Shown piece by piece: positions 1 through 35,300 of a stretch of DNA of 64,000 nt. Source of the stretch: Planctomonas sp. JC2975 (GTDB lineage: Bacteria > Actinomycetota > Actinomycetes > Actinomycetales > Microbacteriaceae); assembly GCF_012985205.1 (NCBI RefSeq), contig NZ_JABEKS010000001.1:1674001-1738000 (forward strand). The letters are read 5' to 3'. The translations under genes were made by a program, and so were the position numbers. Each line of letters begins with the position of its first letter. The stretch's first letter is position 1. The notes beneath the pieces are model-generated. The model did no database searches, was not told the origin of the DNA, and saw only the letters and a list, made by a program, of their open reading frames with translations.

Positions 1-303
1 GTTGGTCACGAAGTAGATCATGGTGTCGAGCGCGGTGGCGATGACGCCGACGACGAGACCGGTGATGAGCGCGCCCCACCAGGTGGCGAAGATGTCGAAG
101 AGTGCTGCAACCGCGAGCAGGACGAAGGTGAAGACCGACGCGAGCGTGAAGAATCCGCTCAGGCTGAGGATCGCGGCCCATCCGGCGCCCTGCACGAGAT
201 ACGCCTCGTTGGTCAGCACGATGGTGCCGATATGGACGAGGAGCGCGACGAGGAAACCGGTGAGGACGGATGCCACGATCTTGCGGCTCCAGGCGACAGT
301 CAT
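1..303 (-). CDS. Small integral membrane protein, 3' end outside the window
   Basis: I read this frame directly from the minus strand: it opens with ATG at 303-301 and is still open at base 1, giving 101 residues starting MTVAWSRKIVASVLTG. About three hydrophobic helices are visible (roughly residues 8-32, 42-68 and 75-98), separated by short loops, so it is probably an inner-membrane protein. I do not recognise the family, and the missing C-terminus prevents a firmer call. The start is supported by a TAGTCT -10 box at 316-311, seven bases upstream, which would give a leaderless transcript. It lies downstream of the giant surface-protein gene on the same strand, but its own promoter suggests separate transcription. 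Confidence 0.7.
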   Translation of the reverse strand, partial: MTVAWSRKIVASVLTGFLVALLVHIGTIVLTNEAYLVQGAGWAAILSLSGFFTLASVFTFVLLAVAALFDIFATWWGALITGLVVGVIATALDTMIYFVTN

Positions 304-425: not shown

Positions 426-3400
426 CTAGACGCGGCGGCGGCGGCGGGCGACGAGCAGTGCCAGCCCGGCGAGGAGGGCGAGGACGGCGAGGGCGAGCCC
501 GGGTGCGGCATCCGATCCGGTCGCTGCGATGGCCGTTCCGTTGCCGGTGCCTGACGCCTGAGTGCCTGCTCCCCGGGCGGACGCACCTGAGCCGCTGCCC
601 GATCCACCGCCGGACGGCGGGTTCGGGATGACCTGCGGCGGCTGCAGGTTGATGTAGACGTTGCGGATACCTGCGTGCTCGTACGCCGGATCGTCGCTCT
701 CGCTCGAGTGGCTGATCGTCTCGACCACCTCGTTCGGGTCGATCACCGTTCCGGGCGCGTAGCGAACGTAGATCGTGTGCGCGCTCGTGTCGCCGGCAGC
801 GATGACGAGCATGATCATCGGGGCGAAGGTCACGCCGTCGAGCGAGACGAGCGCGTAGGGGGCGCCGGGGCCGTATGCGACGGAGATGGTGATGTAGACA
901 TCCGCGGTGGGTGCCGTCGCCAGCTGGATCGTGTACGTGTCCTGCGTCTGGCCGCTCGGCAGGATGACCGTGCCGCCACCGGACTCTGTGACGATGATCT
1001 GACCGTCGCCGGCGACCGGATCGACCACCGGGATGACCGGGAACACCGGCGGATCCTCGTTCGGAAGCATGTACGGCAGCAGCCCGATGGGTGCTGCGTG
1101 CTGACGCGACGGTGCGGACCGGAAGTTGCGGAACAGCAGGTTCAGCCCGTCTCCGCTCGCGCCGTTGATGTTCGAGGAGACATGCCCGAGGCCGCCGAAG
1201 ATGTCGATGCGCACCGTGCTGAGACCTGATCCGCCGTCCACGGTCACCAGGCCGTCGGGCAGGAACCCTGATGCCCCCTCCATCGTGCGGAACACGAATG
1301 CCGAGTTGCCGCCGCCCGCCTCGAGCCGCAGCTCGGCGAGGTTGTGGTTGACGAGGAAGAGGTCGTTGCCCAGGCCGCCGTAGATGGTCGTCGGGAAGCT
1401 GATGCCGGGGCTCACGTAGCCGTCGCTCGTGAGGATGGTCGAGAAGGCGTCCTCCGGGTGAACGGCCGGCGCGGCGCGCGGCGTCTCGTAGACCTGCCCG
1501 ATGATGAACGTGTCGTTGCCTGCGCCACCGTTGATCGTCGTGATCGCACTGTTGTCGTCAACGGCGAACACGTCGTTCCCGCCCAGTCCGTTCACCGTGA
1601 GCCTGGCGTTGATGTGGTCGTCGTAGTCGATGCGCTCCCCTGCCGTCGGTGAGTGCAGCAGGGCGACGAACGCGGGCTGCTGAGCCTGCGGCTGATCCGG
1701 GATGATGGACGAGCCGCGCAGCAGGAACACGTCCGGCCCGTCGGATCCGTTGATCGTCAGGGTGTTGAGGCCACCCCTGGCGCCCGTGTTCAGCACCTCG
1801 AGGCGGTAATCGTGGTTCAGCGGATCCACGCTGCCCCAGGTGGTGATCACGTAGGAGTTGTTCCCCAGCTCGCCGTCGAGGTGCAGCGTGTCGCGCACCT
1901 GCGTGCCGTCGTACGGATCGCCGGAGGTGTCGAGGTGCGTGGTCGTCATCGTCTGCAGGTGGTCGACGACGAACGTGTCGTTCCCGTCCGGGGTGGTTCC
2001 GCCTGGACCACCGGCCGTGGAGGTCGCTCCGCCGTAGACATCGGTCTGGCCGCCGAGGTACGTGTGGTCGAACACGAACGAGTCGTTTCCGGCGCCGCCG
2101 AAGACGTGCGTCGGATGCCCGGTGAGGGTTCCGCCGAAGAACAGGGCGGATCCGATCGGCGTCGCCGGGTTCTGTCCGTACTCGCCGTAGATCGTGACCG
2201 TTGCGCCCTGGATGACCGCACCGACGGGCTCAGTGAGGTCGTCGCCGACCTGGAGCAGCACATCCGTCGCGGCGACGATGCGGCCCTGCGTGACGATGTC
2301 CGCGCCGTCGAGCGTCGAGCCCGTGTCGATGATGGTCAGATCGGAGTCGCCGCTGCCGTCGTACGGCAGGGCGATGCGCACGCCGCCGAAGAGCGACTCC
2401 GCGCGGAGCACGATGAGCGAGCCGGATGTCTGGGTGAGGTCGATGTCCGCCGGCGGGTTCGACCCGGGAGGCAGCGACGACGTGCGGTCTGTGAAGGCGT
2501 AGAGGCGTCCGGTGGGCGACGTGCTGATGCCGAAGGTCGCGCCCGTCGCGCCGATCGCGCCGTTGTGCGCGATCAGGTCGATGTTCGCGCCAGCCGCCTG
2601 GACCGCCTTGGTCGGGTCGTCGTCGAGGATCGAACCGTTCAGGTTCGTCAGCGCGACGTCCCCCGTGAAGGAGTCGACGAATCCGACGAACAGGTCTCCG
2701 GTCGTCTGCGTGAGGTAGATGCCGTCGAGGGCGAGGGCCCGCACGTGACCGCGCGCCGCGTGCGAGGACTGCAGCTCGAGGTAGTTCGTGTCTGGGGTCA
2801 CGAATCCGATGCCGCCGAACTGGGCGAGCAGCGTGATCGTGTTGCCGATGACGTGGGCGGTGTCGTCGTCTGCGGCCGCGACGTCGAAGATGGACGCGCC
2901 CGCTGCATCCGCTGCGATCAGGGTCACGTCCGAGGCGGTTGACGTGATGGTGCCGACGCGGAGGTCGCTGATCGTCTCGGTGTCGATGATGTAGCCGTTC
3001 GTGAACATGTCGATCTCGCCGACGTGGTCGCTGACGGAGAACGGCACGGGGAACTCGGCGCCGGCGAGCGTGGCGTCCACGTTCGTCGTCGCGTCGATGT
3101 TCAGCGTCGCGCGAGCCGCCGTGTGGATGACCCGGATGTCGTTGCCCGCGCTCAGGTCCGGGAACACGTACGTCGAGTCGTACGGACGGTTCACCGTGCC
3201 GAAGGCCGTGAGCACCAGGGACAGGTCGTACGTCGGCGTCGTGTCCGGCCAGAAGTAGACCTTGTACTGGCCGGTCGGCGGGAACGTCGTGCCGATGTGA
3301 TCGGTGTTGTAGACGTTCACCTGCAGGTAGTCGGAGGAGATCACGGGAACGTCGTCGCCCTGCAGGCTGTCGCCGAGCACGAGGTCGATGTTGTGGCCTG

Positions 3401-6400
3401 CGTGGATGGGTCCGAGCGTCGGCGTGAACGGCACGGGAGTGCCGCGCAGGATGGACGTGATGTTCAGCACGACGTCGTCGAGGGCATCGGCGATCAGAGC
3501 GACGAATCGTGTCGGATCCACGTTGTCCACGAGATAGTCGCTCTGCACGAGCTGCACGGGGATGGGGACACGCACCACCGCTCCGCCGACGGTTGCGTAG
3601 GAGCCGATGGTGCCGGCATCCGCGTAGATCGCCAACGTGTTCGTGGTGATCAGCGGCGCATCGGGACCGGCGAGGATGTCGCCGTGCTGGTTGTCGACGC
3701 GCGTCGAGCCGATGGGGTTGTAGATCCAGCCGTCGATGACCAGCTGCGGGGTGCCCCCGCCGTCGAGGTAGTTCTCGATGTCGACGGCCGTCGGCGTGAA
3801 GATCGGCGTGCCGACGCTGAAGCGGAAGTCGGGGCTCTCATCGACCAGGATCTGCATGGTCGCCGCCGTGTTCGTGAGGTTCACGACGCCGACGGCGTGC
3901 ACCACCATCGACCGGTTCGAGTGGTTGTAGAGCTTCACGAAGTCGAACGTGTTCTGCACGGTGAACGTGGCCTGCGTGCCGGTGAGCGTCGAGGCGGGGG
4001 CACTCGCGCCGTTCGGCTGGGTGGGCGGCGTGTTCGCGTGGAAGACGACGGTGGCGCCTCCCGTGTTCGCGATGTCCTGCACCTCGATGGTGCGGCCGGT
4101 CGGGATCGTGGCCCCGAGGCCGTACGTGTTGCCCAGGTCGTCCTTCACGACCACGCCGTACAGCTTGGTGATGGTGCCCGTCGCATCCACCACGAGCTGC
4201 GGATCGGGGGCGTGCAGGTACACGTCGGCGTTCCAGACGATGCTGCGCACCGCGTTGTTCGTGACGCTTCCTCCGCGGCCGCCGCCGTCGAATGCGGCAC
4301 CGCTGCGGTCGCGAGACCAGGTCCAGCCGAGCTCGTTCTGCAGCGCCTCGACGTCGAGGGCCGCCGTGCGGATGATCGCTCCCGCCTCCGCCGTGACGTT
4401 GGAGGTGCTCTGGTACGAGTCGGTGGAATCCGAGTCGGTGTCGCCGCCCAGGCATCCGCAGTTCGCGTTCGAGTGCGCGATCAGCAGAATGGCCTGATGC
4501 TCGGCCGTCAGGGTCACCGACTCGTAGCCGACGATCTTCGTGTCGTGCTCGATCAGCAGGTCGGAGTTCGAGGTGACGTAGATGTTCGAGGAGGCCTTCG
4601 AACCGGCGCCGACGGCCTTCGCGTGCGTGTAACTCTGGTTGTTCAGGGTCATCGCGCCGACGTTCGAGGTGATCTCCACGGTGTCGGCCGTGATGGCGGC
4701 TCCCGGCTGGATGTCGACGTTCGTGGTGTCGGTGACGTTGATGTCGCAGGTGGGGCCGCCGCAGCGTCCTGCGTTCGCGTCGGCTCCGAGACCGCCCGCC
4801 TCGGCGTGGGTGCTCACGTTCGCGTATGCCTGGCTCTGCGATCCGATCGAGGCGTCGTCGCCGGCGGTGATGTGCCCTGCGATGTTCGTCGTCGCCGTGA
4901 TGGTGATGGTGGCGCCCGCATCCGATTCGACGCCGGAGCCCAGCCCCTCCGCACTGGACTGGCTCGACGCGTTCGCCTGGCCGACCGTGACCGGGGCGAT
5001 GGTCACGTTGTGCGCCGCGGTGAGCGCTGCGCCCTGGCCGACCGTGACGATGGTGGACGTCACGGTCTTCGCGGTGCCCTCCGCACTGCCGATCGCGACG
5101 AGGCCGCCGCCGCTGTTCGATGCGTTGGCGGTGACGCCGGCGTTCGAGTTCGTGGTCACCGTGATGCTTCCGCCCGCCGTGAGAACGGCTCCGCCACCGA
5201 TGGTGACGACCACCGAGGCGTTCTCCGACGCCGTCGGAGTCGCGTTGCTCGAGGAGATGAAGCCGCCGCCGGATCCGGCGACCGTCGCCGTCGACTGCTG
5301 CCCGCCGCCCGGCGTGCCGCCGCCGATGCCGAGTGCCGTCAGCGACTGGGTTCCGCTGCCAGGGGAGCTGAGGTCGAGCACCAGTTGCTGAACCGCGCTG
5401 CCGCCAGTGGCGATGCTGACCGGAGCCGCGGTGAACGTGCCGACCCCGATGATGCCTGCCCCGTTCAGCGGCAGTGCCGTTCCGCCCTTCGTCGCCGAGA
5501 CCTGGAGCTGCGTCGTCGAGTTGGAGATCACGTAGTAGCGCCCTCCGTCGTCCAGGCCCTGGATGGGCTGCTGGCCAGGGATCCACAGGCCGTGGACGAC
5601 GGCCTCGCCCGCGTCCGACTTGTCGGGGGTCAGCGGAACGGCCTTGACCGGGATGGGGTTGTTGGATCCGTCGACGCAGCCTCCCGTTGCCTCGCACATC
5701 GTGTTCGCCAGCGAGATGACATTCGGGTTGACGACGATCACGTAGTACGTGTGGCCGTTCAGCAGGCCGCCGATCGGATCGGACGCCCCCTCGTAGACGA
5801 CGGCCTCGCCCGTGGTGAGCCCGTGGCCCTGGATGACGATCTCGTTGTTGTCCTGATCGACGAGGTGCTGCGGGTTGCCGGTCAGCACCGGAGCGCCGCT
5901 GCCATCCGTCTGGATGTTCACCTGCTGGCTGGAGAACGTCACGAGCGCTGGCGCAGCCGTGTAGACGACGGCGTCGCCCGGCTTGAACGCGTTGCCCACC
6001 GTGAACGTGTTTCCGCCCGTGACGTTCGATCCCGTGACGGAGACCGAGGACTGCGATTCGTTCGCGTCGTAGAGCTGGATGTGCGAGGCATCCACGACGT
6101 GCACGCGGTACTGGTGACCCGCGATGAGTCCGGGAACCGCCGTTCCGCCGCTCGGCACCGTGTAGACGACGATGTCGCCCTCGTGCAGGTTGTGGTCGAG
6201 CGGCACGAAGGATCCGCCGACCGTCGCACCGAACGCGATGGTGTTGGTCGACGGGTCGACCTGGGCGCCGTCGAAGAGCGATCCGAGCTCGACGGCGTTC
6301 GCGCCGACGACGATCACGTTGTAGTCGAATCCGTTCGTCAGCCCGCCGACCGGCGTTCCGCCCTGCGAGCTGTACGTGACGGTGCTGCCCGTGGTGAAGC

Positions 6401-27400: not shown

Positions 27401-30400
27401 CGTCGGAAACGGCGGATCCGGCCACCGTCGACGCCGACGCGTTCTGCGTCGCGGTCACGCCGATCGCCCCGGTCGCCGAGGTCGTCGCCCCGGTGAGGAT
27501 CGCCGCCGTCGTCGTCACGGTCGACAACGCGAGCGCCACGGCCGGTGCGAGGGCGGCGCCGCCGCCGGACGATCCGGACTTCGCTTCGACGGTCGCGGCA
27601 TCCGTCGCGGTCGCCGTCAGCGAGATGCTCTTCGCCGCGGTCACGGATCCCGAGATGGTCGCGTTCGTCGCGTCGGTGACGAGGTCGAGGGCGACGGAGG
27701 CCCCGATGCCCGCCTTCGTCGCGGTGACCCCGCCCGCGGTCGGTTCGGCCTTCGCCGTCGACGTCACGTTCGATCCGGCAGTCACGGCGAGTGCCCCTGA
27801 TCCTGCGGACGTCAGCGTGACATCGCCGGCGAGCAGCGCGGTGGTCACAGGTGTCACGACGGCGATGGCGAGGGATCCGGCGAGCGACACGCTTCCGCCT
27901 CCGGCCCCGCTGGTGGCCTGGGCGGAGACGGCGGATCCGTTGTCCGACCCGTCGACGGCGACTTCAGCGGAGAGCGTCAGCGATCCGGCATGCACGGAGT
28001 CGCCGGCCGGCAGCGTCGCCTGGTTCACCGCGTGCAGGAGGGTGATGGCCACGGCGGCACCGATCACGAGGTCGGCGGTGGACACCGCTGAGCCGTCGGC
28101 GCTGGTAGCGGCATCCGCGTTCTGCGACGAGCCGATGGTCACTGCCCCGCTCGCGGTCAGCACGACACCGGTGCCGATGACGGATGCCGACGCTGTCGGC
28201 GTCGCGACCACGACGGCGACTGCCGCAGCCGCGTCGACCCCGCCCTGCGAGGTGGACGCGCTTGGAGCCTTCGTCGCGGCGGGCGCTCCACTGCCGGTCT
28301 GGGTCGCGAAACCCGATGCCGCGCCCTTCGCGTCCGTCACGCTCGTGTCGACGCCCGTGCCGGATCCGCTGGAGCCCTGCGGCGCGCCCGACGCTGACGC
28401 CGTGGCCGACGCCGTGCTGCCGCTGAAGCCCGTGGCGGTGATGCCGATGGATGCCGCGCTCACCGATCGCGCGACCGACGCGGAAACGGCATCGGCCGTG
28501 ATCACGAGTGAAAGCCCCGCGCCGACCGCTGCCGTGGCTCCGCCCTGCACGGCGCCCGTCGCGGTCGCTGCTGCGGTCGCGTGCTGCTCGGCGCTGATGC
28601 CGACCGCACCCGTTGCCGTGAGCAGCGCACCCGTGCCGATCGCCGCCGTTGTGGAGACGTTCGCCGAGACGACGGAGGCGAAGGGCGCGACGGAGACGCC
28701 CGACGACGATGCGCCGTCCTGTGCGGTGACCGCGGCGTCGTCGTGCGTGAGCGCGGCGAGCGTGACGTCCGCTGCGCCCGTGACGACGGATCCGTCTCCG
28801 ATCACCGCCGTCGTGGTGTCGTTCACGAGCGCAAGGCCGAACGAGGCGCCGATGCCGGCAGTGGATCCGCCGGGGCCGCCAGCGGCCATGAGCGCGGAGA
28901 CCGTGGAGACGACGGCGGAGGTCGCGTGTGCGGAGAACCCGCCGGATCCGCCGGATCCGAGCGTGACGGTGGGTCCGGTGCCGCCGCTGGACAGGAGCGC
29001 GGCCGAGGTGGTGACCGTCGCGGTCTGGAGGGCGACGGATCCTGCGACGCCGAGGGTTCCTCCGCTCCCGGCACCCGCAGTGGCGGTCGTGCTGAAGCGG
29101 TCGGTGGCGTCTGCTGCGCCGGATGAGGTGGTCGGTCCGACTCCGGCTGTGAGGCTGAGGGCTGTGGAGGTGATGAGGGTGTGGGGTCCGACGTTCGCGG
29201 AGACCGTGACGTCGGCGAGGGTGACCGCGACGGCGGCCGCAATGCTCGTCCCGCCGCCAGGGGGTGCGCGGCTGGAGGGTCCGCCGGATGCCAACGTGGC
29301 GGCCGACGCGTTCTCGGTGGCGGTGAGGTTGACGCCGTGCGCGACGATGGTCACCCCGTCGACCGAGGCGTCTGCGCTCGCGCTGTGCACGGTGATCGAC
29401 ACGGCTGCCGAGACGCTGACGGTTCCGGCGGGTGTGGCAGGGGCTCCGGGTCCTGGGCTGCCGCCGCTCCCGCCTCCGCCGCCGGGAAGCCCACCGCCGG
29501 TGGTGGGGGCCTCGCTGTCGGCGAAGGTGCGCGCCCCTGTGGCGAGGTCCGCGGGCGACGGGTGCTCGGCGGCATCCGTTCCGCCTGCCCCGACGTCGGA
29601 CGCCGTCGCGCTCGTCACTGCTCCAGACGCGCCGTTCGCGGTGAGGCTGAAGGTGCCGCCGACCGTCACGTCCCTGTGCGTCGTGGCCTGCACCAGGTGG
29701 TTCGCGTACGTCTGGGCGACCGCGACGCCGAGCGAGCCATCCGCTTGCGCCTCTCCGGTCGCCGTCGTGGAGACCGTCGCGACCTGGTGTGCCGTCGCCG
29801 TGTAGTCGCCGGTGAGTGTCAACGCCGTGCCTGTCTCGCTGTTCGCGATGGTGAGCACGTTCGAGGTGGTCAGCGCGTAGACCGGGGCGATCGCGACACC
29901 CGTCGAGAATGCGCCGCCGCGTGCCTGCGTCGTCGAGGGCGAGACGGCATCCGCGGTGAGCGTCAGGTTGTGGGCTCCGGTCAGAGCCGAGCCGGCGGCG
30001 AGCCCTGCGGCCGTCGTGTCGTTCACGACGTTCAGCGCGATGGAGGCGCCGATCCCCGTCGTCGCGCCGCCGGCGTTCGCGCCGGGCACCGCCGTCGCCA
30101 GGTTCGTGTCGTTCGACTTCGCCGTCAATCCCACATCGGTTCCGGATGCCGCCACCGGCGCTCCCGTGAGCTGCGCGGTCGTCTGCACCGTCGCCACGTT
30201 GATGGCCACGGATCCGGCAACCCCCACGTTCGTCGCCCCGCCGGCTCCGGATGTCGCACTCGCCGAGTACGTGTTCGTCGCGCCGTCCGCGGCAGGCTTC
30301 GTGACAGCAGCGACGTCCAGCGCCGGAGTCGTGAGCGTCGCGCCGGACACGTGCGCGTCGGTCGTGACGTCCGCACTGTTCACGGCGACGGCCACTCCGA

Positions 30401-33400
30401 CGCCGTTCGGATCACTGGCGGCCGCACTTCCGTCTGCCGCCGCTGACGAGCCGCCCTCGTTGCTGGCGTGCACGCTGACCGGTGCCCCGCCGCTGGATCC
30501 CGCCGTGCCGGTGACCGCGATGACGAGACCGCCGCCGATCGGCGCGATGTACGCGTGCGTGGACTGCTGCACATCCGAGTAGGCCAGCGCTCCCGCTATG
30601 TCGATGGATCCGCCGGGTGCCTTGGCCTTGCCGTCCGTGGTGGTGGACGGCGACTGGCCGTTGCCCGTCGATCCGCCGGGGCTCGACTTCGCCACCGTGA
30701 CGACGACGTTGTCGGAATCCGCTGCTACGTCGACGCTGCCCGCGTTCACTCCGAGGTTGCTGTTGCTGTCGATGTACGCCGCCGTGTTGCTCGTGACCCT
30801 GGTGACGCCGATGCCGGCTCCGGCCGTCGCCGCCGTCGCATCCGCTGTCGTGGTGACCGACGTGTTGTTCGAGGCCGCGAGGACGAGCGCGCCGCCGGCC
30901 TTGATGCTCGAGGAGCCACCGACGTGTGTCGTCGCCGTGCTGTCGATCGCAGCGGTGGCGACCGCGGCATCCGTCGCCGAGCTCGCCCCCGTTCCCGTCG
31001 AGCTGACGACAGCCGTCACCGTCGAGGAGCTCGCGAGCGTGACGGCGCCGCGCGCGTCGATCACCGTCGCACCGACCACGGACACGAGCGCGGACGACGA
31101 CGCGGACACGACGTTCTCGCCGACGATCGGAGCTGCGGAGGGCGTCTGCGTCGCCGTCGCGGAGAGGATCACGGTGCCCGCGTGGATCACGGCCCCGTCG
31201 ACGATCACCGATGCGGATGCCGCCGATCCGGTCTCCGCGTCCGTCGCGGCGAGCGTGACATCCGCTGCCGATCCGCCCGACCGGGTGTCGATGGTGACCC
31301 CGGGCGAGACGGTGATGCTCGCCGCGCCGATCACGATCCGAGCGCCCGGCAGCAGCAGGTCGCCCGTCACGAGGATCTTCACGCCGGTCGCCGTCGCCTG
31401 GATGGTGAGCGACCCGGTCGGGATGTCGATGGTCTGCGTCTCCATCGCCGGAGAGCTGACGATGAGGTGTCCGGCGCCGTCCGAAGTCACGGTCACGGTG
31501 TCGTTCGCCGTCGAGGCGGTCACCGTCACGTTGGCGACGCCGGTGATCGTCACCGGCTCGAGTCCCGTGTACGTCACCGCGTGGCCGCCGAAGACGACGG
31601 ATCCGCTCGACGCGTTGCTCGGCGTCGAGACTGCGGAACCGCCCGCACCGTGCAGCACGAGCGTGTCGTATCCGCCGGCTCCGCCGTCGAGGGTCCCGTC
31701 CAGCGAGCCATTCGGCGAGAACACGAACGTGTCGCGGTTGTCAGCGGCGCCGACCAGGTTCTGGAACCCGGAGAACGACTGCTCGCCGACGGATCCCGCG
31801 TCGTGCCCTGTGACATTCCAGGTGGTGTCGGAGGCCGGGCCGTGCAGGGACGTGCCCGTCCCCGTTGCGGCGATGCTGTCGACCCCGCTGTAGCTGAAGC
31901 CGCCGAGCGAGGGTGCCACGACGGATCCGCCGCTCGTCGAATCCGCTGTCCAGTCGACGTCGTTCCCGATGACCGCGACCGTGTCGGATCCCGACCCGGT
32001 GAACGCGATCGGGACGGTGACCGGACCGACCGACGTGTCGACCGTGAGCGTCATGGCGTTCCCGCCCGCGCTGCGGATGTCGGCCGACGTCAGCGACGAC
32101 AGCGGCACGCGCGTGAGCACCCCGCCGTCGTCGATCACGAGGTCCCCGCCGTCGACGTAGACGCGCACGCTGTGCGCGGCCGTCGCGGTGTCGGCCGTGT
32201 ACGTGTACACGCTCGGCGCAGCTGCGGGCGTCGTGCCCGGCGTTGCCGCCGCCGAGCCGGACGAGGCCGCCGTCGTCGTGGCGGTCGCCGTCGAGGTTCC
32301 GGATGCCGGTGCCCCGGTCGCCGATGAGGCGTCCGTTGGCGCCGTGCTCGGCGTCGGCGTAGCGGAAGCCGGATCCGTCGATGCGACCCCGGTCGCCCCC
32401 GAGCCCGAGGTGGTGTCCGTGCTCGTCGCCGGATCGGTCGCGGAGGTCGTGGCATCTGTTCCGGACGTGGCCTGGGTCGCAGACCCTGACGTGCCGTCGG
32501 TCGCCGGCGCGGGGCTCGCGGTCGCGGCCGGATCGGACGCAGCCGGATCGGAGGTGGCCGGATCGGATGCGGCCGTGGGATCGGAACTCGTCGTCGTTGT
32601 CGACGCGGTGTCCGTCGGGGTCGTGTCGACCGCCGGGGTGGTCTGCGTGCCGGAACCGGAGGCATCCGTTCCGTCGTCGAGCACGAAGCCGGAGCCGAGC
32701 GATGCCCCGAGCCCACCGTGGATCGTGGTGCCACCGGACGCCGTGGGCGTCGAGGTCGGATCCGGGGTGGGTGTCGGGTCCGGCGTCTGTGTCGGCGTCG
32801 GCGAGTCGGTGGGTGTCGGCGTCGAGGAGTCCGTCGGCGTCGGCGTCGACGAATCCGTCGGCGTCGGCGTCGAGCTGTCGGTCGGGGTCGGGGTGGGCGT
32901 CGATCCGCCGGTCTGAGTGGATCCGCCCACCGTCGCAGGTCCCGTGGTTCCCGGCCCGCAGACGAGCGTGCTGCTCGAGGTGCTCGACGACGACGAACTG
33001 GTCACCGTTCCTGTCGTCGGGTCGACGGTGGTCGTCGGCGTGCTGGTCGGACCGGAGCCGCCGGTCATGTGGCAGTTGGATCCGTACGGGGACGTGCTCG
33101 TCGGCTGCGGAACGACTGTGGCCTGAACGCCGTTGTGCGCTGCGGCGAGCGCAGCCAGCAGTGCGGCCAGCAGCGACGGGTCGATCTGCGTCCCGGTCGG
33201 CTGCGCACTCGGCTGTGCCGTCGCGCTCGGCTGAGCGGTCACCGTGGGAGCGGTCGCCGTCGGCGAAGCGGATGCCGTCCCCTGCGTCGGTCCGTCCGGA
33301 ATCGCCACGCGCACGGTGACCGTGTGCGTGGATTCGGGTGCCGCCGCCTGCGCGGGTGCACCGATCACGACGGACTGCGCGAGTGCCAGAGCGAACGCCG

Positions 33401-33533
33401 CCACGACGGCGGACAGAACGAAGATCACAGATCCGGGTCGCCTCGTTGTGAGGCCCAGCGGACCGCGGCGGCGCGCGACGAACGCGTCGGAACCCATGGT
33501 TCCGCGCGTGCTCGTGCGCATCCCTCGTGCCAC
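426..33533 (-). CDS. Giant repetitive cell-wall-anchored surface protein (11,035 aa)
   Basis: One open frame of 11,036 codons, by composition (Ala, Gly, Ser, Thr, Val) roughly 1 MDa. Residues 1 to about 63 form a long signal peptide with an Arg-rich start, a hydrophobic core and an APAQA cleavage site. Residues 66-440 are Thr/Pro/Ser/Ala-rich with PTPTDSS repeats. Residues 440-740 contain a beta domain with a GGAGGYDTL motif. Residues 1757-6043 are 11 tandem units of about 390 residues. More divergent beta repeats of the type VGVGAAVAVNV continue to about 9700. Four GGxGND motifs lie near 10480-10725, a Calx-beta-like stretch near 10840-10950, and the end is a Gly/Ser linker, IAATG (11002-11006), a hydrophobic helix and RRRRR. 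It is probably a sortase-anchored adhesin or shell protein; I see no enzymatic domain. The frame opens at GTG 33533; in-frame ATGs at 33521 and 33497 are alternatives, and no Shine-Dalgarno decides among them. No sortase is nearby. Confidence 0.9.
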   Translation of the reverse strand: MARGMRTSTRGTMGSDAFVARRRGPLGLTTRRPGSVIFVLSAVVAAFALALAQSVVIGAPAQAAAPESTHTVTVRVAIPDGPTQGTASASPTATAPTVTAQPSATAQPSAQPTGTQIDPSLLAALLAALAAAHNGVQATVVPQPTSTSPYGSNCHMTGGSGPTSTPTTTVDPTTGTVTSSSSSSTSSSTLVCGPGTTGPATVGGSTQTGGSTPTPTPTDSSTPTPTDSSTPTPTDSSTPTPTDSPTPTQTPDPTPTPDPTSTPTASGGTTIHGGLGASLGSGFVLDDGTDASGSGTQTTPAVDTTPTDTASTTTTSSDPTAASDPATSDPAASDPAATASPAPATDGTSGSATQATSGTDATTSATDPATSTDTTSGSGATGVASTDPASATPTPSTAPTDASSATGAPASGTSTATATTTAASSGSAAATPGTTPAAAPSVYTYTADTATAAHSVRVYVDGGDLVIDDGGVLTRVPLSSLTSADIRSAGGNAMTLTVDTSVGPVTVPIAFTGSGSDTVAVIGNDVDWTADSTSGGSVVAPSLGGFSYSGVDSIAATGTGTSLHGPASDTTWNVTGHDAGSVGEQSFSGFQNLVGAADNRDTFVFSPNGSLDGTLDGGAGGYDTLVLHGAGGSAVSTPSNASSGSVVFGGHAVTYTGLEPVTITGVANVTVTASTANDTVTVTSDGAGHLIVSSPAMETQTIDIPTGSLTIQATATGVKILVTGDLLLPGARIVIGAASITVSPGVTIDTRSGGSAADVTLAATDAETGSAASASVIVDGAVIHAGTVILSATATQTPSAAPIVGENVVSASSSALVSVVGATVIDARGAVTLASSSTVTAVVSSTGTGASSATDAAVATAAIDSTATTHVGGSSSIKAGGALVLAASNNTSVTTTADATAATAGAGIGVTRVTSNTAAYIDSNSNLGVNAGSVDVAADSDNVVVTVAKSSPGGSTGNGQSPSTTTDGKAKAPGGSIDIAGALAYSDVQQSTHAYIAPIGGGLVIAVTGTAGSSGGAPVSVHASNEGGSSAAADGSAAASDPNGVGVAVAVNSADVTTDAHVSGATLTTPALDVAAVTKPAADGATNTYSASATSGAGGATNVGVAGSVAINVATVQTTAQLTGAPVAASGTDVGLTAKSNDTNLATAVPGANAGGATTGIGASIALNVVNDTTAAGLAAGSALTGAHNLTLTADAVSPSTTQARGGAFSTGVAIAPVYALTTSNVLTIANSETGTALTLTGDYTATAHQVATVSTTATGEAQADGSLGVAVAQTYANHLVQATTHRDVTVGGTFSLTANGASGAVTSATASDVGAGGTDAAEHPSPADLATGARTFADSEAPTTGGGLPGGGGGSGGSPGPGAPATPAGTVSVSAAVSITVHSASADASVDGVTIVAHGVNLTATENASAATLASGGPSSRAPPGGGTSIAAAVAVTLADVTVSANVGPHTLITSTALSLTAGVGPTTSSGAADATDRFSTTATAGAGSGGTLGVAGSVALQTATVTTSAALLSSGGTGPTVTLGSGGSGGFSAHATSAVVSTVSALMAAGGPGGSTAGIGASFGLALVNDTTTAVIGDGSVVTGAADVTLAALTHDDAAVTAQDGASSSGVSVAPFASVVSANVSTTAAIGTGALLTATGAVGISAEQHATAAATATGAVQGGATAAVGAGLSLVITADAVSASVARSVSAASIGITATGFSGSTASATASASGAPQGSSGSGTGVDTSVTDAKGAASGFATQTGSGAPAATKAPSASTSQGGVDAAAAVAVVVATPTASASVIGTGVVLTASGAVTIGSSQNADAATSADGSAVSTADLVIGAAVAITLLHAVNQATLPAGDSVHAGSLTLSAEVAVDGSDNGSAVSAQATSGAGGGSVSLAGSLAIAVVTPVTTALLAGDVTLTSAGSGALAVTAGSNVTSTAKAEPTAGGVTATKAGIGASVALDLVTDATNATISGSVTAAKSISLTATATDAATVEAKSGSSGGGAALAPAVALALSTVTTTAAILTGATTSATGAIGVTATQNASASTVAGSAVSDASSAAVGVGLALTIANHTVMAATARSLNAGADLALTASGISSSAADATASAAGAPGDGSGGGTGSGVDQQVTDQRTFADNTSQLNGGSTSGTTKAPSASTQSGGIDVAAAVGVVVAGSESTATIVGTGIDLTAGGTLTLASNANTDAASSADGSAVAPGTASIGAGVAITLAHVVNHAVLPTGDTIHAHALVVSAAMTQNGTDATHVFGAQAASGAGGGNVLVAGSLGLATVSLDTLAQLAGAVTITGSGGLAVTAVSDETSTVKAEPVGPGVSGGKVGVGASVALNLIGDSTVASIADGATVSGAGAITLTATAKDVAATEAKMGASGGGVAVTPAVAVTLATVTTAASVGTLGGTTTLAGNLSVSASQTATASTTAGAVATGASTAAVGIGLALTIANDDVHATTARSITAGGGITFDSSGVWASASTATASAGGAQQTSGGGGSSGSGVDDQVANQRQFAGDTAKANGAAGGTDPTGTTSTPSASTSGGKIDAAAAVAIVVATQTSTATVSSSVAGLTLTASGTVTLSAQQNADATTSADGSAVSGGAAAIGAAVAITLADVTNTALLPQNATVHAKALTISATEAVNGTDDVSTYGASSTSGAGGGKVSVAGSLGLAIANQTTSAQLAGTAALTGGDAVVTAGSNATTTVKALPTGGGVTPGNLGIGASAALAIVTDQTTAAVAKGATLTGAADVTLTSTAMDATTTQAQMGASGGGVDVAPAVAVTLSTVTTLATIGTGGTLALSGDLTAHATQSASASSTANAAVAGASTAAVGVALALTIANHTVTGSTARSVTASGAITLQATGTSASASSATASASGAKDNSSTGGSGGSGGDGVDQQLSKERTHADDTAGESGGAASGGTATPSASTSSGKVNVAAAVGVVVASVASTATIVGTGITLTSGGTVTIAASQNTDAGSAADGTASQGATATIGAAVALTLAKVDNTASVPVGDSVHAHGLVVSATATPNGADVTSTYGAQSASGAGGGTVSIAGSVAIAIVGQQTSALLAGTVTLTGGDASVTAASAAASTVKAEPSEGGVSGGKVGVGASVALNLVTDTTQASVANGSVFTGAGNVTVGSTATDAAATEAKMGASGGGVDLSPAIAVTLSAVTTTATIGTGATLQLSGALAASATQNASASTVAGSVATGASTAAVGVGLALTLSNHTIAATTARSITAGGDLSLTASSTSVSAAQASASAGGAPENSGSGGSGGDGVDTQVQKERTNADDTSAAAQGGTSGSKATPSASSSQGKVNVAAAVAVVVATVNVSATIIGTGLTLNSGGTVTIGSSQNTDAGTNADGSAVGASSANIGAAVAITLANVDNTAILSAGDSVVAHGLVVQATETVAGADAVSTYGAQSASGAGGGKVSVAGSLALEIANQTTTASVAGGVNLGAPSNAQGAVTITAGSAASSTVKAEPTPGGVVASSVGVGASAALAIVTDATAATIAGTATFTKTGDVTLSSSAKDDSAVEAKMGASGGGVSITPAVAVALSTVTTTVHVDAASGLTGNAAVLGSSGSFGATATQNASTSTVAGAVATGGTAGVGVGLALTIANHSVTASTDRSITAGGDIALTAAGASASAAQASASAGGAPGDSSGGGTAGGGVDQQVSTERTNADNTAGTYGGAKSGSDQTPSASTSSGKVNVAAAVAVVVAEATSSATIDHDGLALDAGGRVTLAASQNTDAGTNADGSAAGASSANIGAAVAITLADVENSAVVPTGDTVTAHDLTVSATETVVPLSGGGTDAVSTYGAQSASGAGGGNISVAGSLSLAVVNQHTTAEIAGTVTMSGGDAAVTAASAASSTVKAEPTAGGVTTSKVGVGASVALNLITDETIATLDDGIALTGARNVTLTSSATDDALTDAKMGASGGSVDIAPAVAVTLSTVTTQVVVGTPGGTLSVSGSFAGSATQNASANTSAGAVVAGGSTAAVGVGLALTVSNHTVSATTARSITAGGDLALSASGVSASAASGQASASGAPENSADGSGGAGTGGGSGDGVDAQIQKERTNADDTAAASKGSKSGGTTTPSASTSSGKVNVAAAIGVVVATVSSSATVIGSGLQLKAGGTVTLASSQNTDAASAADGSASQGATATIGAAVAITLADVTNSAVLPAGDTVVAHALVVSATETVSGADVTSTYGAQATSGAGGGKISVAGSLALAVVNQATSAELAGTVSLSGGDASITAGSAASSTVKAEPTAGGVTSTSVGVGASVALNLITDTTLATLDNGIAITGAHSIALTSTARDDALTDAKMGASGGKVDIAPAVAVTLSTVTTTAVIGTFGGTLSASGDVTAAATQNASANTSAGAVVAGGSTAAIGVGLALTVSNHTVSGTTARSITAGGNITLSAFGVSASAASGQASASGAPENSADGSGGAGTGGGAGDGVDAQIQKERTNADDTAAASKGAKSGTTSTPSASSSSGKVNVAAAIGVVVATVKSTATIVGTGLDLTASGTVTLASSQNTDAASAADGSASQGATATIGAAVAITLADVTNTAKLPAADTVHSHSLVVSATETVVGSGPGADATSTYGAQSTSGAGGGKISVAGSFALAVVDQQTLAELAGTVSLTGGDASVNAGSTASTTVKAEPTLGGVTATSVGVGASAAIALIQDDTTATLDNGIAITGAHDVSLTSSARDDSVVEAKMGAAGGKVDLAPAVAIDLSNVTTQALIGTFGGTLTLGGSLTASATQKASASTNAGAVVTGGSSAAIGVGLALTIANHTVTATTARSVDAGGNITLSASSVSASAAGAQASASGSPENSADGSGGAGTGGGAGDGVDSQVKGQRDFTDQSAADNGVKGTGSASTPKATSSSGGVNVAAAIGIDLATAAATATIVGTGIDLKAGGTVTLASSQNTDAASSADGSATQGGTANVGAGVAITLADVTNTALLPASDTVHAKNLVVSATETADGSDSTSTYGAQSVSGAGGGKVSVAGSFALAVVNQKTLAELAGTVTLTGGDITVTAGSQASTTVKAEPTPGGVTATSVGVGASVAIALIEDDTTAVLDNGIAITGARNVSLSATAGDDAIVEAKMGAAGGKVDIAPAVAIALSNVTTTASLGTFGGALQLSGSLTLSATQKATASTNAGAVVSGGSSAAVGVGLGLTIANHTVTATTARSVKAGGDITLGASSVSDSAAGAQASASGAPENSTDGSGGAGTGGGAGDGVDSQVKGQRDFTDQSAANNGVKGSGSASTPKATTSDGGVNVAAAIGIDLATVTATATIAGTSLDLTAGGTVALASSQNTDAASSADGSATQGGTANIGAGVAITLADVTNTAELPATDTVHARGLVVSATETVDGSDATSTYGAQSVSGAGGGKVSVAGSFALAVVDQTTLAEVACTVTLTGGDAAITAGSQASTTVKAEPTPGGVTSTNVGVGASVALSLIQDTTTATLDDGIALTGAHDVTLTATARDDAVTEAKMGATGGKVAIAPAVAITLSNVTTTARIGSLPQAIQLSGSLTAGASQIASASSTAGAATGGASSAAIGVGLGLTIANHTVSGTTDRSIVAGGNATLSASSVSATAASAQASASGAPESSGGSGSSGDGVDSQVQGQRTFADQSATDNKVAGSGGTATPSANTNDGKVNVAAAIAITVSTVTATATIEHDGPDITAGGLVTLASSQNTDAATDADGSASHGATATVGAAVAITLANVTNTARLPQGDTIHAHAITVSATETPFTTSTSGSDVTSTYGAQAASGAGQGKISVAGSFALAVVNQTTLAELSGVVTLTGGDVAITAGSNATSTVKAEPTQGGVSATNVGIGASVALNLVTDTTTALLDNGIVVTGARDFVLTATAGDIATTEAKMGAQGTGSAKVAVTPAIAITISNVITSASIGTIPTGGLVITGSFAANAHQTAGATSTAGAVAAGGSSASVGIALGLNLVTHTVTGTTGRNITAGGSIAFGAFGSSADGAAASASASGAPGTSSPNAPSGDVDKQASDQRDFASTTATTYKGKGADGSANPSASTSDGKVAVAAAIAINVADVTATATLPTGLTLAAGGAVSLASSENTDGIVKADGTALNAQDVGVGAAVALNLVTIVNKAWIGDRTTVTGNGFSESATMTNVAGDTTHTFTVEADAGAGSKDVGVAGAVALNLVTDNTEAYIPGSAAVHAGTGDVVLTAQNLRTDSATAKADAELGGGGKVGIGASVAINVLTTNVTRAEVVDGAVLTGGRNVTLSATASDPVTAVVTAGSAGSSVAVSPAVGINIVSPVTIARLGIPSAPGVGLVATGAVTIAASYTGGTSVTGDANAAGDGVAVGAVIALNILTLTTTAQTQRSITGTSVVITAATVTAGSAQATASAQGSAQNTAGNSDSQASDQLNGTPSTSGKTGTLPSSSDNVSSANGQASGQSGKSGQGVGVGAAVTVNWVVDTTTATITDGLTITATGALVVASSNTVDATDKSIGTSLKLNSTNIGAGIGLNVATVTNTGSIGAGDHITAGSVAVEAITPAGAENDFVVWGLAAAGGNGKVSVAGSVGVQVIDFETTAVIGAGSTVLSAGGLAVQASNPMGLQNIAAAGGLAISGSGVGAAVAVNILTIDTLAYIDPVPGAPTTIDAGGAILITATASIGALVVPDIPLITIAVTSVAIAGGAGTSGVAIGGSVIVDVMNLTTRAYIAGGTAVNQHVPVSPAQSITISARDDTTFVQLAGAIALTAGSVGVGLGLVVDVLNKDVRAYIGDGVTARLGGSVAITATATESITAVAVDAAASTNAAVVGSIIVMVINQGSNAPGTRAYVDGGASPTVLHAGGGISIQASDTLPALALYTGNLTVGGSAGVGVSSATLVRTGIVDAYIAAGDDIQTYGAPGLAIGATQSENETLLAIGGAGGGTAGVAGSATVGVQNNTTTAHIDAGVTINHDNTLAQPGQGIALAASDTTTLKGAAGQLAIGGTAGVGAGADIEVLNKTTQAWIAPGTTANVVGDATIDATSSENVISISTGGAGGGVAAVAVNAAVPVFTIVTQAWIGERCQAAQVTPANCTTSRAVVNAGGNARIAANEQLTMTVVAGAIAVGGTAGVGAAAAVPVVTKTTTAFLGDFSVLNALGTTPGLTVNTGGFSTTQVDTRFSPSAIQADGVTLHLPFTHSYTEGEQVMYDDGGGDQIVGLTQGQVYYVHVVSPTDIQLSLTPGGAAIPLSAPARGGESQRLVPTDQASVPQSTTPYFDPHTSGAVAGTVITLPYDLDVSLGDPVIYSSGGGTPIGGLVDGGEYYVIPGAPGSHQIQLADSLCHADPTAKGCSGSVQTAITLNAAAATGRAHSIVKQGDQPSPNPAATLGTQTVTGNTATGFHGVAITANNSDDISAAGVTASFAGIAGVGVGGSVNVVTATTTAFVGKYAQVDSSNGGADAAQSVLVDAGNAFRLLMISAVAAGGTVGVGASATVGVVKLTADAFIDQSAYVAAQRDVDVVGTATDAVTSVAVTASGGLVGVAGAASVIVLTTHTYADTGLAVTIAAGNNVLIGAHDDTSIIAVGGGISGGFVGVGIGVTVTSITKDTRAFIGAGSIVDAKATQPANTLSGVYDGTFAGTGFGTSPFNGLAVQAGSSEKIFGLAVAVGAGAAGVAGGVDVTLLHATTEAFIDSNLLNRTRINTAAGAGSQQSVNVSAADATSALTIGGGMAGGLVGVAGGIDIGIAQTATQAYIGGYATVDAARDLVLNALAAKSIHSYALSVGLGAVGIAASVSVWTVGTDPTTSYNAGANGVDKGTWSSAGSYVKGDVVTASDGQRYGALVDGPTLDPVADTSHTQWEAAADALAPSSGTSAQTQSGGIANGAGSGGYQHILDNAGNSTADSVTNARIAPSLTSASGSVQGAAPGSDLVNNEFDAPQVPGSTTSEIGAGTVIVVGGSVRMAANEQNSYLGVVGTVAVGIAAAGGSVAIANLTSTSDAGVATGVSITAGGDVSVQSVVTENDFGIAFAGQGGLISVGAQVAVITSHASQTAHIDTGAVIPTAGGTVDVEAKTVRTVNPLAIGIAIGAAAVGAAVADAEVDGNTTATIGDVTIGAAAPAGGVNMLAQSQITVPTQAYSVQGGIGVGITGAGAIAHISGATTAAFNGHATLSGGMSVAASGTNTTSASTLGVATGTIAAGIMVVVSRDERTTVAEMTKGSSVSAGGTVAVSATSANHATVLAQGGTFSGVGVTLMLPIALVTGTTEAHLDGQVTASGAVAVAASGQNQASAEADVLNIALLGGGQGTFPVAHVEQSAQVLASIGASASIASSGLVSVKAAIVVDGNGHGNYAFAKVLGGGGGIINAGAYTADAELLAPTTAELRTTVSSSGGVSVTADSTSRAEANTTVGSVSFAGVTAAGLVALIASSAATTAIPTGGTIGSTGSVTVKATSNNTATVDTQVGSIGAFTLSATLPFAHVEAATRAELGDPVLSANGLTVSAGAQNTATADSALLGIGILAGALGGADARITSSASVTAIVDSTATTVNAGSGALLVSASSVNHATATPSQVTVGGIALSGLTPIAIVAAGTTAEFDGGTTTSGAFSVTASGQNTAQATASADNFSIIGATGALADAEVQSTAGVGASVSTSTRLTATGFVTVTASLGAGGNTADAEITSTGGGLIHGGVFFAKAVVAAPVAATFGGAVLGSTGATIAASGTNSTTATTESLGIGLASLTGAAVDSEVLGSASVQATFGSGAMVTTGSVTVKATSGNTATASTDTLDGGLIAGNASFPIAQIAAPTGAEFDGGLSGGTGLAVSATSTSIASSVSGARAFGLAGASDSSPQATVTSGVVTQANIGQGAVLNAPNGSVSVVSTATNSATAKGGSTNGGLGSISSANPHATDNAQTFARMLGAAHGASATTPGAQSFQVLATGTDSATALISDTSVGGLSVANAGANAATATLVETDFGTAGAPVSAVGDITIGVSSNPVSIAASESEHVGIALDLANNTASVTTNPTVNLFIGANAQIYAGGTITATAQQNTQAPPAPNSSQFDASGVTSNVITLTAPHSFTTGSTVTYSSQGGTPVGGLTNGFDYNVIVVGANAVELGSLFDGAQVDPSTNTIAFGATVGGSFVPLDHNLHEGDIVVYTVPSGGTAVPGLIAGHQYRVHVVDASHIQLYDANESQSSVSVTGSNVTGGNTFTVGNAFKPGDAVVYTAAPALVTFSSQQVNIQTDGSGAPVLTGNPQHLVDQDNNEIVIQGHGLTTGEAVVYEGASDPIGGLLNGHTYYVIVVNPNVISLANTMCEATGGCVDGSNNPIPVKAVPLTPDKSDAGEAVVHGLWIPGQQPIQGLDDGGRYYVISNSTTQLQVSATKGGTALPLNGAGIIGVGTFTAAPVSIATGGSAVQQLVLDLSSPGSGTQSLTALGIGGGTPGGGQQSTATVAGSGGGFISSSNATPTASENASVVVTIGGGAVLTAGGSITVTTNSNAGVTANASNSGGGLVAIGSAEGTAKTVTSTIVTVGQGAALTAAHNVTIAPVTVGQANASSQSSAEGLGSGVESDAGATITITATTNIAGHITAGDDASIGSQSQAYANVSTHAEAGGLGADANAGRCGGPTCDINVTDTTNVDIQPGAAITADTVEITSNVGAMTLNNQSYTHAKAVGAGSKASSNIYVTSNSDLLIEHDTKIVGYESVTLTAEHQAILLIAHSNANCGCLGGDTDSDSTDSYQSTSNVTAEAGAIIRTAALDVEALQNELGWTWSRDRSGAAFDGGGRGGSVTNNAVRSIVWNADVYLHAPDPQLVVDATGTITKLYGVVVKDDLGNTYGLGATIPTGRTIEVQDIANTGGATVVFHANTPPTQPNGASAPASTLTGTQATFTVQNTFDFVKLYNHSNRSMVVHAVGVVNLTNTAATMQILVDESPDFRFSVGTPIFTPTAVDIENYLDGGGTPQLVIDGWIYNPIGSTRVDNQHGDILAGPDAPLITTNTLAIYADAGTIGSYATVGGAVVRVPIPVQLVQSDYLVDNVDPTRFVALIADALDDVVLNITSILRGTPVPFTPTLGPIHAGHNIDLVLGDSLQGDDVPVISSDYLQVNVYNTDHIGTTFPPTGQYKVYFWPDTTPTYDLSLVLTAFGTVNRPYDSTYVFPDLSAGNDIRVIHTAARATLNIDATTNVDATLAGAEFPVPFSVSDHVGEIDMFTNGYIIDTETISDLRVGTITSTASDVTLIAADAAGASIFDVAAADDDTAHVIGNTITLLAQFGGIGFVTPDTNYLELQSSHAARGHVRALALDGIYLTQTTGDLFVGFVDSFTGDVALTNLNGSILDDDPTKAVQAAGANIDLIAHNGAIGATGATFGISTSPTGRLYAFTDRTSSLPPGSNPPADIDLTQTSGSLIVLRAESLFGGVRIALPYDGSGDSDLTIIDTGSTLDGADIVTQGRIVAATDVLLQVGDDLTEPVGAVIQGATVTIYGEYGQNPATPIGSALFFGGTLTGHPTHVFGGAGNDSFVFDHTYLGGQTDVYGGATSTAGGPGGTTPDGNDTFVVDHLQTMTTTHLDTSGDPYDGTQVRDTLHLDGELGNNSYVITTWGSVDPLNHDYRLEVLNTGARGGLNTLTINGSDGPDVFLLRGSSIIPDQPQAQQPAFVALLHSPTAGERIDYDDHINARLTVNGLGGNDVFAVDDNSAITTINGGAGNDTFIIGQVYETPRAAPAVHPEDAFSTILTSDGYVSPGISFPTTIYGGLGNDLFLVNHNLAELRLEAGGGNSAFVFRTMEGASGFLPDGLVTVDGGSGLSTVRIDIFGGLGHVSSNINGASGDGLNLLFRNFRSAPSRQHAAPIGLLPYMLPNEDPPVFPVIPVVDPVAGDGQIIVTESGGGTVILPSGQTQDTYTIQLATAPTADVYITISVAYGPGAPYALVSLDGVTFAPMIMLVIAAGDTSAHTIYVRYAPGTVIDPNEVVETISHSSESDDPAYEHAGIRNVYINLQPPQVIPNPPSGGGSGSGSGASARGAGTQASGTGNGTAIAATGSDAAPGLALAVLALLAGLALLVARRRRRV
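516..530 (-). other. Codons for the IAATG sorting signal of the giant protein
   Basis: These codons encode IAATG, followed by about 20 hydrophobic residues and the tail ARRRRRV to the stop. The layout (pentapeptide, helix, basic tail) is that of a cell-wall sorting signal. Class E sortases of high-G+C Gram-positives are known to accept LAxTG; here the first residue is Ile rather than Leu. Anchoring by such a sortase is inference. Confidence 0.75.
1362..2099 (-). other. RTX-like GGxGND motifs in the giant protein
   Basis: Four hexapeptides of the type GGxGND are encoded at 1362-1379 (GGLGND), 1512-1529 (GGAGND), 1572-1589 (GLGGND) and 2082-2099 (GGAGND), each followed by a hydrophobic xFxV strand. 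This is the core of the calcium-binding nonapeptide GGxGxDxUx. The copies are spaced apart rather than in a continuous beta-roll, so calcium binding is possible but not proven. Confidence 0.65.
5450..6420 (-). repeat. Cluster of Gly-Tyr modules in the giant protein (second cluster)
   Basis: This part encodes at least four divergent copies of a module reading roughly GL.xGxxYxVxxVxxxxxxL, preceded by a DxVVYTxxxGxPxxGL segment; examples are HQYRVHVVDASHIQLYD and HTYYVIVVNPNVISLAN. The copies are 60-80 residues apart. Similar modules are, from memory, present in giant proteins of Gram-negative bacteria. They alternate with the beta repeats and may be separate small domains. Confidence 0.65.
11600..12060 (-). 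repeat. Cluster of Gly-Tyr modules in the giant protein (first cluster)
   Basis: Encodes two copies of the same module as the cluster at 5450-6420: one containing GQVYYVHVVSPTDIQLSL, the other GGEYYVIPGAPGSHQIQL. The second copy is followed by a cysteine pair (CHADPTAKGC). The cluster interrupts the beta-repeat region near residues 7160-7310. Confidence 0.6.
15407..28265 (-). repeat. Eleven tandem ~390-residue (about 1.17-kb) repeats inside the giant gene
   Basis: Measured from the Pro codon of a conserved PSAST-type linker at 28265 to the matching Pro codon at 15407 there are exactly 4286 codons, or 11 units averaging 389.6 residues. A second anchor (AKMGA or its equivalent) falls at 27571, 26423, 25253, 24094, 22930, 21748, 20575, 19390, 18217, 17044 and 15877, with spacings of 1148-1185 bp. 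Each unit contains, in order, VNVAAAVGVVVA-like, SSQNTDA, STYGAQSASGAGGGK, STVKAEPT, AKMGASGG, NASASTxAG, ANHTVxATTARS and a Gly/Ser-rich hinge with an ERTNADDT-like motif. Central copies (16.5-22 kb) are visibly the most alike and the edges diverge. Confidence 0.92.
32795..32915 (-). repeat. 24-bp repeats encoding the PTPTDSS stalk
   Basis: Near-identical 24-bp units encode repeated PTPTDSST octapeptides in the N-terminal stalk of the giant protein. Such Pro/Thr-rich stretches are typical wall-spanning or glycosylated spacers in actinobacterial surface proteins. The number of units could vary by slippage. Confidence 0.75.
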
Positions 33534-33889: not shown

Positions 33890-33931
33890 ACGAACGCCGG
33901 CAATGACCTCCGCTCTCAGCTTCAGCGCGCC
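33890..33931 (-). repeat. 42-bp stop-codon-spanning element, copy 1
   Basis: This segment contains the last codons and TGA of the LigD-type gene plus about 34 downstream bases. It matches the segment at the end of sucC (45971-46012) at 35 of 42 positions. Here the internal hairpin is degenerate. It is probably a dispersed intergenic repeat; its role is unknown. Confidence 0.6.
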
Positions 33932-35175: not shown

Positions 35176-35300
35176 CTCCCGAAAGTGCCCGTTCTCCCTC
35201 CCGAAAGTGCCCGTTCCTACGCTCGAGAGTGCCCGTTCTCCCTCCCGAGAGTGCCCGTTCCTACTCGCGAAAGTGCCCGTCCCTACTCCCGAAGGTGTCC
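35176..35300. repeat. Phased 22-bp tandem repeat array, six units
   Basis: Six units with plus-strand core CTCCCGAAAGTGCCCGTT. The GTG of the core falls at 35185, 35207, 35229, 35251, 35273 and 35295, an exact 22-bp period with no indels; the last unit is degenerate. The array occupies most of the gap between the LLM gene and the LigD-type gene. The reverse complement of the same unit forms the array at 36451-36600. Confidence 0.9.

Follow-up and report, generated by a model that had tools for sequence, protein, structure and literature searches.

The stretch of DNA analysed here (the window; 64,000 nucleotides of Planctomonas sp. JC2975, contig NZ_JABEKS010000001.1, positions 1,674,001 to 1,738,000 of the forward strand) carries one giant gene on its minus strand (426..33533), which encodes a protein of 11,035 residues with a mass of 1,043 kDa and an isoelectric point (pI) of 4.27. 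The giant is a real gene under purifying selection. Its product is likely to be a single-chain, wall-anchored surface fibre, and the anatomy proposed below for this fibre is very likely to be right.

The gene is one uninterrupted frame, running from a GTG at 33533 to a stop at 426-428 without a single internal stop, whereas 194 stops would be expected in this frame from the base composition. The other five frames over the gene contain 19-455 stops, with a longest open run of 2,017 codons, and coding bias is seen in the G+C content of the three codon positions (0.63/0.61/0.89). ATG codons at positions 5 and 13 are alternative starts, giving a protein of 11,023-11,035 residues, and an alignment of the DNA upstream of the gene in three congeners leaves the choice between them undecided. 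Moreover, Nei-Gojobori counts over residues 6441-11035 gave ratios of nonsynonymous to synonymous substitution rates (dN/dS) of 0.244 against the congener G004 (dS 0.60; 4,571 aligned codons), 0.201 against the congener G002 (dS 0.64; 4,582 aligned codons) and 0.449 against the more distant G106 (dS 0.75). The source genome is assembled as 4.36 Mb in 11 contigs. The longest exact direct repeat inside the gene is only 50 bp, making a collapse of repeats from short reads unlikely; the corresponding repeats measure 502 bp in the stretch of G004 and 170 bp in G002, and collapse is therefore less well excluded in those two. The first-pass annotation of the window had described a single 33.1-kb frame of this length, which is confirmed by these data.

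Anatomy, fold and predicted anchoring

All segments described here lie on the minus strand. The protein starts with a signal-peptide-like segment, recognised by eye in the translation (residues 1-64, ending ...GAPAQA; 33342..33533), and similar segments are present in the orthologues. It is followed by a segment whose composition is 55% Ser, Thr and Pro (residues 66-445; 32199..33338) and which holds a recurring Cys pair (residues 154 and 192), and by an N-terminal body domain (residues 565-703; 31425..31841) with 43% identity to residues 279-419 of a Gram-negative giant of the LEPR-XLL type discussed below. The bulk of the body is an array of a ~55-residue LktA-like motif (residues 856-9019; 6477..30968), for which an iterated hidden Markov model (HMM) of 50 positions found 118 copies at a median spacing of 57 residues and none in each of 10 shuffled proteins. 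Repeat analysis and a structural model place within it a higher-order array of 14 units of ~390 residues (residues 1006-6428; 14250..30518), the regular unit consisting of six motifs and a ~60-residue linker with a predicted helix. Identity between units ranges from 50% to 82% and is highest for neighbours (11 units compared). The conserved C-terminal region (residues 9035-10964; 642..6431) aligns over residues 9035-9536 and 9659-10751 with the same Gram-negative giant. A comparison of cysteines showed that 12 of the 13 in the whole protein form six pairs, three of them (9280/9286, 9591/9596 and 9692/9694) in the stretch 4452..5696; G004, G106, G181 and G527 show the six pairs in the same order and at similar distances. 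The chain ends in a cell-wall sorting signal, seen in the translation and by HMMs (residues 11003-11035; 429..527), made up of IAATGSD, a hydrophobic span and RRRRRV.

The NCBIfam repeat model LktA_tand_53 (NF012206) scores 65.8 against a cut-off of 50 for residues 5001-10000 and only 29.7 for residues 1-5000, and no match over the cut-off was found with it in genome searches. Pfam yielded no family in the giant (residues 1-10000 and 1-1005 at E 0.1; residues 10001-11035 at E 0.01), PHROGs none on three pieces of it, and the PDB no match by sequence at E up to 1 for the C-terminus, the C-terminal profile or the repeat profile. Similarly, a plasmid search with the repeat units returned no match.

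Structure prediction of repeat units, which the first-pass annotation had proposed as a check, was carried out for two of the 14 units. The AlphaFold2 model is beta-solenoid-like (predicted local distance difference test, pLDDT, 81.6; predicted template modelling score, pTM, 0.81), and its structural matches among 16 chains compared were CsgA, hemopexin-binding protein, RsaA and polygalacturonase; a viral structure library gave no match at E 0.001. The body of stacked ~55-residue motifs is thus probably beta-solenoid-like, as modelled for these two units. The model of the C-terminal part is weak (pLDDT 67.0, pTM 0.60); the last domain alone was used and is Ig-like. Rungs of a beta-solenoid are spaced 0.48 nm apart. 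If one motif equals one such rung, the rod would be ~57-69 nm long, an estimate that uses the ratio of aligned ranges and inferred strands of ~20 residues, while scaling by mass to FHA would give ~181 nm; the choice between these values depends on the residues per rung.

Gram-positive anchoring, proposed in the first-pass annotation, was borne out at the level of sequence. The C-terminus scores 20.4 against a cut-off of 15.9 with LPXTG_anchor (TIGR01167) and 27 against 27 with the LAVTG model (NF058582), the signal-peptide-like start and the hydrophobic span with its Arg tail are visible by eye, and a search of the genome for sortases (PF04203) returned a single one, of class E (223.2 against 160). 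Passages of one study describe class E sortases as recognising LAXTG and SrtE1 as preferring Ala over Pro twofold (PMC5148588). The readable ends of the clade of relatives carry LAxTG in 12 of 16 cases, the others being LAxSG in G129 and G181, LPATG in Microbacterium rhizomatis and IAATG in the window; this count excludes L058, which has stops in the frame, and L049 and L050, which are duplicates of G004 and G106. Taken together, the sequence of the C-terminus suggests that the giant is probably chained to the cell wall via a signal of the class E sortase type. The same genome contains further LPSTG and LASTG ends. One of them, of the LASTG type, belongs to a laminin-G/Flg_new protein of 1,159 residues encoded ~15 kb from the giant (L002:1296-4775, minus strand), whose gene adjoins a phospholipase-C-like gene.

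The hybrid picture drawn in the first-pass annotation, in which Gram-positive anchoring is joined to a body of the kind known from Gram-negative giants, was largely upheld for the anchoring, the body and the existence of long homologues; the stalk as part of the anchoring was not. A Ser/Thr/Pro-rich segment is indeed present, but it is N-terminal and, since the protein would be anchored at its C-terminus, it would form the far end and not the part next to the wall. One PMT-family gene occurs in the same genome (41.9 against 22.7 bits). A mucin-like reading of the Ser/Thr/Pro-rich N-terminus was set aside, as nothing ties this gene to the giant.

Relatives and other giant proteins

A 931-residue C-terminal query matched in three of five genomes of the genus and in 11 of 299 genomes (six of 85 genera) of the family, own genome included in both counts; in the family count G275 is represented by fragments only, and the matches in G053 and G072 are partial and weak. 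In the class sample, a C-terminal profile matched in 3/394 genomes including its own, all of the same family, and in a phylum sample of 396 genomes two (own included) matched NF012206 at E 0.001, none over the cut-off. Uninterrupted homologues were found in G004 (10,652 residues), G106 (11,104), G129 (9,623), G268 (9,757), G181 (10,101) and G527 (10,436), the lengths being measured from the first start codon onwards or, for G527, from the preceding stop. The search for equally long actinobacterial homologues thus returned near-equal lengths of 9.6 to 11.1 thousand residues in six other genomes, and the seven uninterrupted genes including that of the window average 10,387 residues with a coefficient of variation of 5.7%. 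With low-complexity filter and composition adjustment off, the alignments are collinear over nearly the whole body (G004 67%, G106 60%, G181, G268 and G129 ~41%), and unit-shifted matches also occur; G527 was compared by C-terminus and unit array only. Humibacter sp. RRB41 and Diaminobutyricibacter tongyongensis NBRC 108724 are named records with the same kind of match. No literature on these Microbacteriaceae giants was found in the open-access literature.

Two relatives carry interrupted copies: in G002 (L010-L012) the gene is split into 4,267 + 7,014 in different frames, and in G032 (L027-L029) into 4,913 + 6,166, where a stop is accompanied by an out-of-frame stretch; in both, sequencing error and true loss are not separable. 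The low dN/dS against the G002 copy implies that its interruption is recent or an error. Several stops lie in the matching frame of Microbacterium sp. NIBRBAC000506063 (L058).

An alignment of 12 overlapping unit pairs of the window, with the first unit pair left out, was used for the units. Units 1, 2, 13 and 14 of the window have positional counterparts in G106 that are closer to them than any other unit of the window. The inner units 5-12 of G106 share 84-94% with each other and 69-75% with units of the window's genus, units 3 and 4 being less clear (68% and 74% against 61-67%), which shows that the inner array is homogenised within lineages. Compared with G002, the inner units 3-12 of the window reach 77-88%, by position except near the interrupted unit. 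At one threshold, 14 units were counted in the window and G106, 13 in G004 and G527, 11 in G181 and G129 and 10 in G268, the last three perhaps undercounted because the unit model was built from the window.

The body resembles that of Gram-negative giants, as had been proposed. A search of plasmids with the C-terminal region returned eight records, the best from Pseudosulfitobacter sp. DSM 107133, whose 38,757-bp LEPR-XLL gene encodes 12,918 residues (WP_114295156.1) and adjoins genes annotated as HlyD family, site-2 protease family and RND adaptor. Residues 565-703, 9035-9536 and 9659-10751 of the window protein align with it in the same order (43%, 30% and 28%; best E 4.3e-66), and it contains 52 matches to the 50-position motif; the score of LktA_tand_53 supports the same likeness. 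The two proteins differ at their ends. In the Pseudosulfitobacter giant, LEPR-XLL (NF012209) lies close to the start (30.4 against 17 bits) and RTX calcium-binding repeats lie close to the end (HemolysinCabind, 1.1e-25). The window protein instead starts with a signal-peptide-like segment and ends in a sorting signal; no NCBIfam family, LEPR-XLL included, was found on its residues 1-1005 at E 0.1, and no RTX-type end was recognised by Pfam on residues 10001-11035 at E 0.01, where a few GGxGxD-like stretches are present. Parts of a published report (PMC10868602) describe a giant of ~8,000 residues from Vibrio that likewise has LEPR-XLL and RTX at its ends. The window giant is therefore best called a sortase-type branch of the body of the LEPR-XLL giants, in which two LEPR-XLL features were not found. 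The sequence comparison suggests that one giant-fibre body is common to these proteins and is combined with differing ends that serve export and anchoring, and such proteins would then not be tied to one export system.

In a tree of C-termini, 16 rows of Microbacteriaceae-type Actinomycetota form one clade (100/100) apart from 10 others, which include the Gram-negative rows, further giants of actinobacteria and a gene on a Rhodococcus plasmid. The root is a midpoint set for drawing, for which reason no direction of transfer is claimed. Three rows are short. The Rhodococcus antarcticus gene, on a 54.9-kb plasmid (L105:2658-22901), encodes a related protein of 6,747 residues whose C-terminus looks out of frame, and this plasmid may be a transfer route. 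Not every giant is of this kind: G053 has frames of 11,102 and 12,277 residues without a sorting signal, the longer of them with no match to the motif. In another family, G767 (C45; L096-L100) has adjacent frames of 13,159 and 11,695 residues, also without a sorting signal, both ending in a stretch that looks Calx-beta-like by eye and in DDDDKGRPR.

Further known systems share single traits with the window giant. The LktA-type tandem-repeat filamentous proteins share the repeat model over its cut-off in residues 5001-10000, but the window protein has its own whole-protein architecture with ~390-residue units and a sorting signal; the LktA label implies nothing on toxin activity. With regard to the TpsA proteins (FHA, HxuA), Pfam gave no match to an N-terminal TPS domain in the window giant at E 0.1 (residues 1-10000 and 1-1005, by sequence), and no partner transporter was recognised among the neighbours scanned. 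Mobiluncus mulieris is an actinobacterial species. Its TIE adhesin, as portrayed in excerpts of PMC10619420, is likewise a giant with a sortase motif (7,651 residues), but carries 51 Ig-like cross-linked domains and LPxTG in place of a beta-solenoid-like array and (I/L)AxTG; in the C-terminal model of the window giant, only the last domain is Ig-like. Giant1-5 of Apilactobacillus kunkeei are also Gram-positive surface giants (3,000-8,000 residues), but according to PMC12863079 they consist mainly of helical repeats or of other beta domains and are attached by an SH3b-like end and not by a sortase. SwmB of Synechococcus WH8102, likened by description only, is exported and of near-equal length (10,791 residues; portions of PMC4949707), but is cyanobacterial.

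Possible role and competing explanations

A route to the wall can be proposed from these features. The N-terminus suggests that Sec would export the chain, and the motif, the HMM matches and the sortase suggest that a class E sortase would cleave the (I/L)AxTG-type signal and bond the protein to the wall. Outside the cell the ~55-residue motifs would stack into a long beta-solenoid with a helix linker every ~390 residues, as modelled for two units, and from the polarity of the chain the Ser/Thr/Pro-rich N-terminus would be located at the far tip and the Ig-like domain next to the wall. Working in the manner of a filamentous adhesin may be considered at most by analogy. As the likeliest role, a long fibre that projects beyond the wall and serves in adhesion or cell contact is tentatively put forward. 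It is also conceivable, if rather doubtful, that a giant body common to both sides of the Gram divide is fitted with different ends (LEPR-XLL and RTX in Proteobacteria, a signal peptide and a class E sorting signal in Microbacteriaceae) and that, with inner repeats homogenised in each lineage, the narrow range of unit number and length reflects selection on fibre length, making the array a molecular ruler built by recombination.

Several observations weigh against the explanation as a wall-anchored fibre. The LAVTG model is reached exactly at its cut-off, the window pentapeptide is IAATG and not LAxTG (Ala kept, Leu replaced), and TIGR01167 at E up to 1 also matches in 14 of 14 control genomes, in nine of them over the cut-off, so that this model alone was rejected as proof of anchoring. 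The match to CsgA combines a high Z with a poor root-mean-square deviation among only 16 chains, the Pfam searches found no domain of known binding function in the giant, and no promoter-like or terminator-like sites were found in the two stretches scanned. Furthermore, two of nine full-length loci (G002, G032) are interrupted, and the giant is dispensable in the genus, since the 99%-complete congener G001 lacks it.

These points bear differently on the alternatives. A spurious frame produced by high G+C, or a wrongly joined repeat array, could appeal to the G+C content of ~71%, to antisense open runs of up to 1,551 codons over the same stretch and to the interrupted copies in two relatives; it is nevertheless very improbable given the absence of the 194 expected stops, the dN/dS of 0.20-0.24, the 50-bp maximum repeat and like-length orthologues in separately assembled genomes, and chance frame and assembly artefact were rejected on the stop statistics, dN/dS and repeat length. 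The interruptions, together with the stops in L058 and the absence of the gene from G001 at the same locus, would also fit a decaying or useless gene that is kept by repeat expansion and drifts to loss. This is improbable as well, as dN/dS lies well below 1 even against the interrupted G002 copy, the sorting signal and the Cys pairs are found again in other genera, and the length varies by only 5.7% despite inner repeats that are homogenised lineage by lineage.

The real and selected gene could still encode a protein that is exported and acts in the biofilm matrix without being bound to the wall, as the deviation of IAATG from LAxTG and the ends without sorting signal in the more distant actinobacterial giants of G053 and G767 might suggest. 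Such a released protein is rather unlikely, since LAxTG occurs in 12 of the 16 members of the clade and the hydrophobic span and Arg tail of the window protein are intact. A wall-bound giant might instead serve as a surface shield keeping grazers or phages off the cell, as said of SwmB, which in passages of PMC4949707 is listed with SwmA among swimming and grazing defence proteins; the patchy presence (11/299 family genomes) and the acidic nature (pI 4.27) of the giant are in line with this. The shield is unlikely but the next best proposal for the role after the adhesive or cell-contact fibre.

The analysis extends one odd frame to a family of megadalton sortase-type surface proteins in the window's genus, Diaminobutyricibacter and their kin; in five named Microbacterium species matching C-termini, and only these, were seen. 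As the genus includes genomes in which the gene at this locus is intact, interrupted or missing, the purpose of the giant can be tested by comparison and deletion.

Locus and neighbouring genes

The window's genome, G002 and G004 have the same gene order, namely purH, giant, dimethylargininase-like gene, ScyB-like dehydrogenase and two ABC transporter genes. In the window, the dimethylargininase-like gene lies downstream (1..303, minus strand) and continues beyond it in L002, while purH, recognised by domain scan and congener alignment, is the upstream anchor of the conserved locus (36697..38685, minus strand). In G001 the alignments of purH and of the dimethylargininase gene end ~50 bases from each other (10472, 10523), and gain and loss of the giant are indistinguishable from the comparison of this locus. 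In G003 (87% complete), likewise, the giant was not found, and the dehydrogenase matched only weakly.

Only in the window's genome are purH and the giant separated by a gene for a LigD primase-polymerase domain protein (33922..35154, minus strand; domain scan) and a luciferase-like gene; at this locus, the stretches fetched from G001, G002 and G004 gave no match to the pair. The luciferase-like gene is flanked by 22-bp tandem repeats in opposite orientation (35176-35281, plus; 36472-36599, minus), with nine matches to one 18-mer at up to three mismatches against 0.09 expected. A 524-residue protein without a Pfam match at E 0.01 (42335-43909, minus strand) is kept near purH in G001 and G004, and a 78-bp tandem repeat of 2.5 copies with 96% matches occupies 49527-49724.
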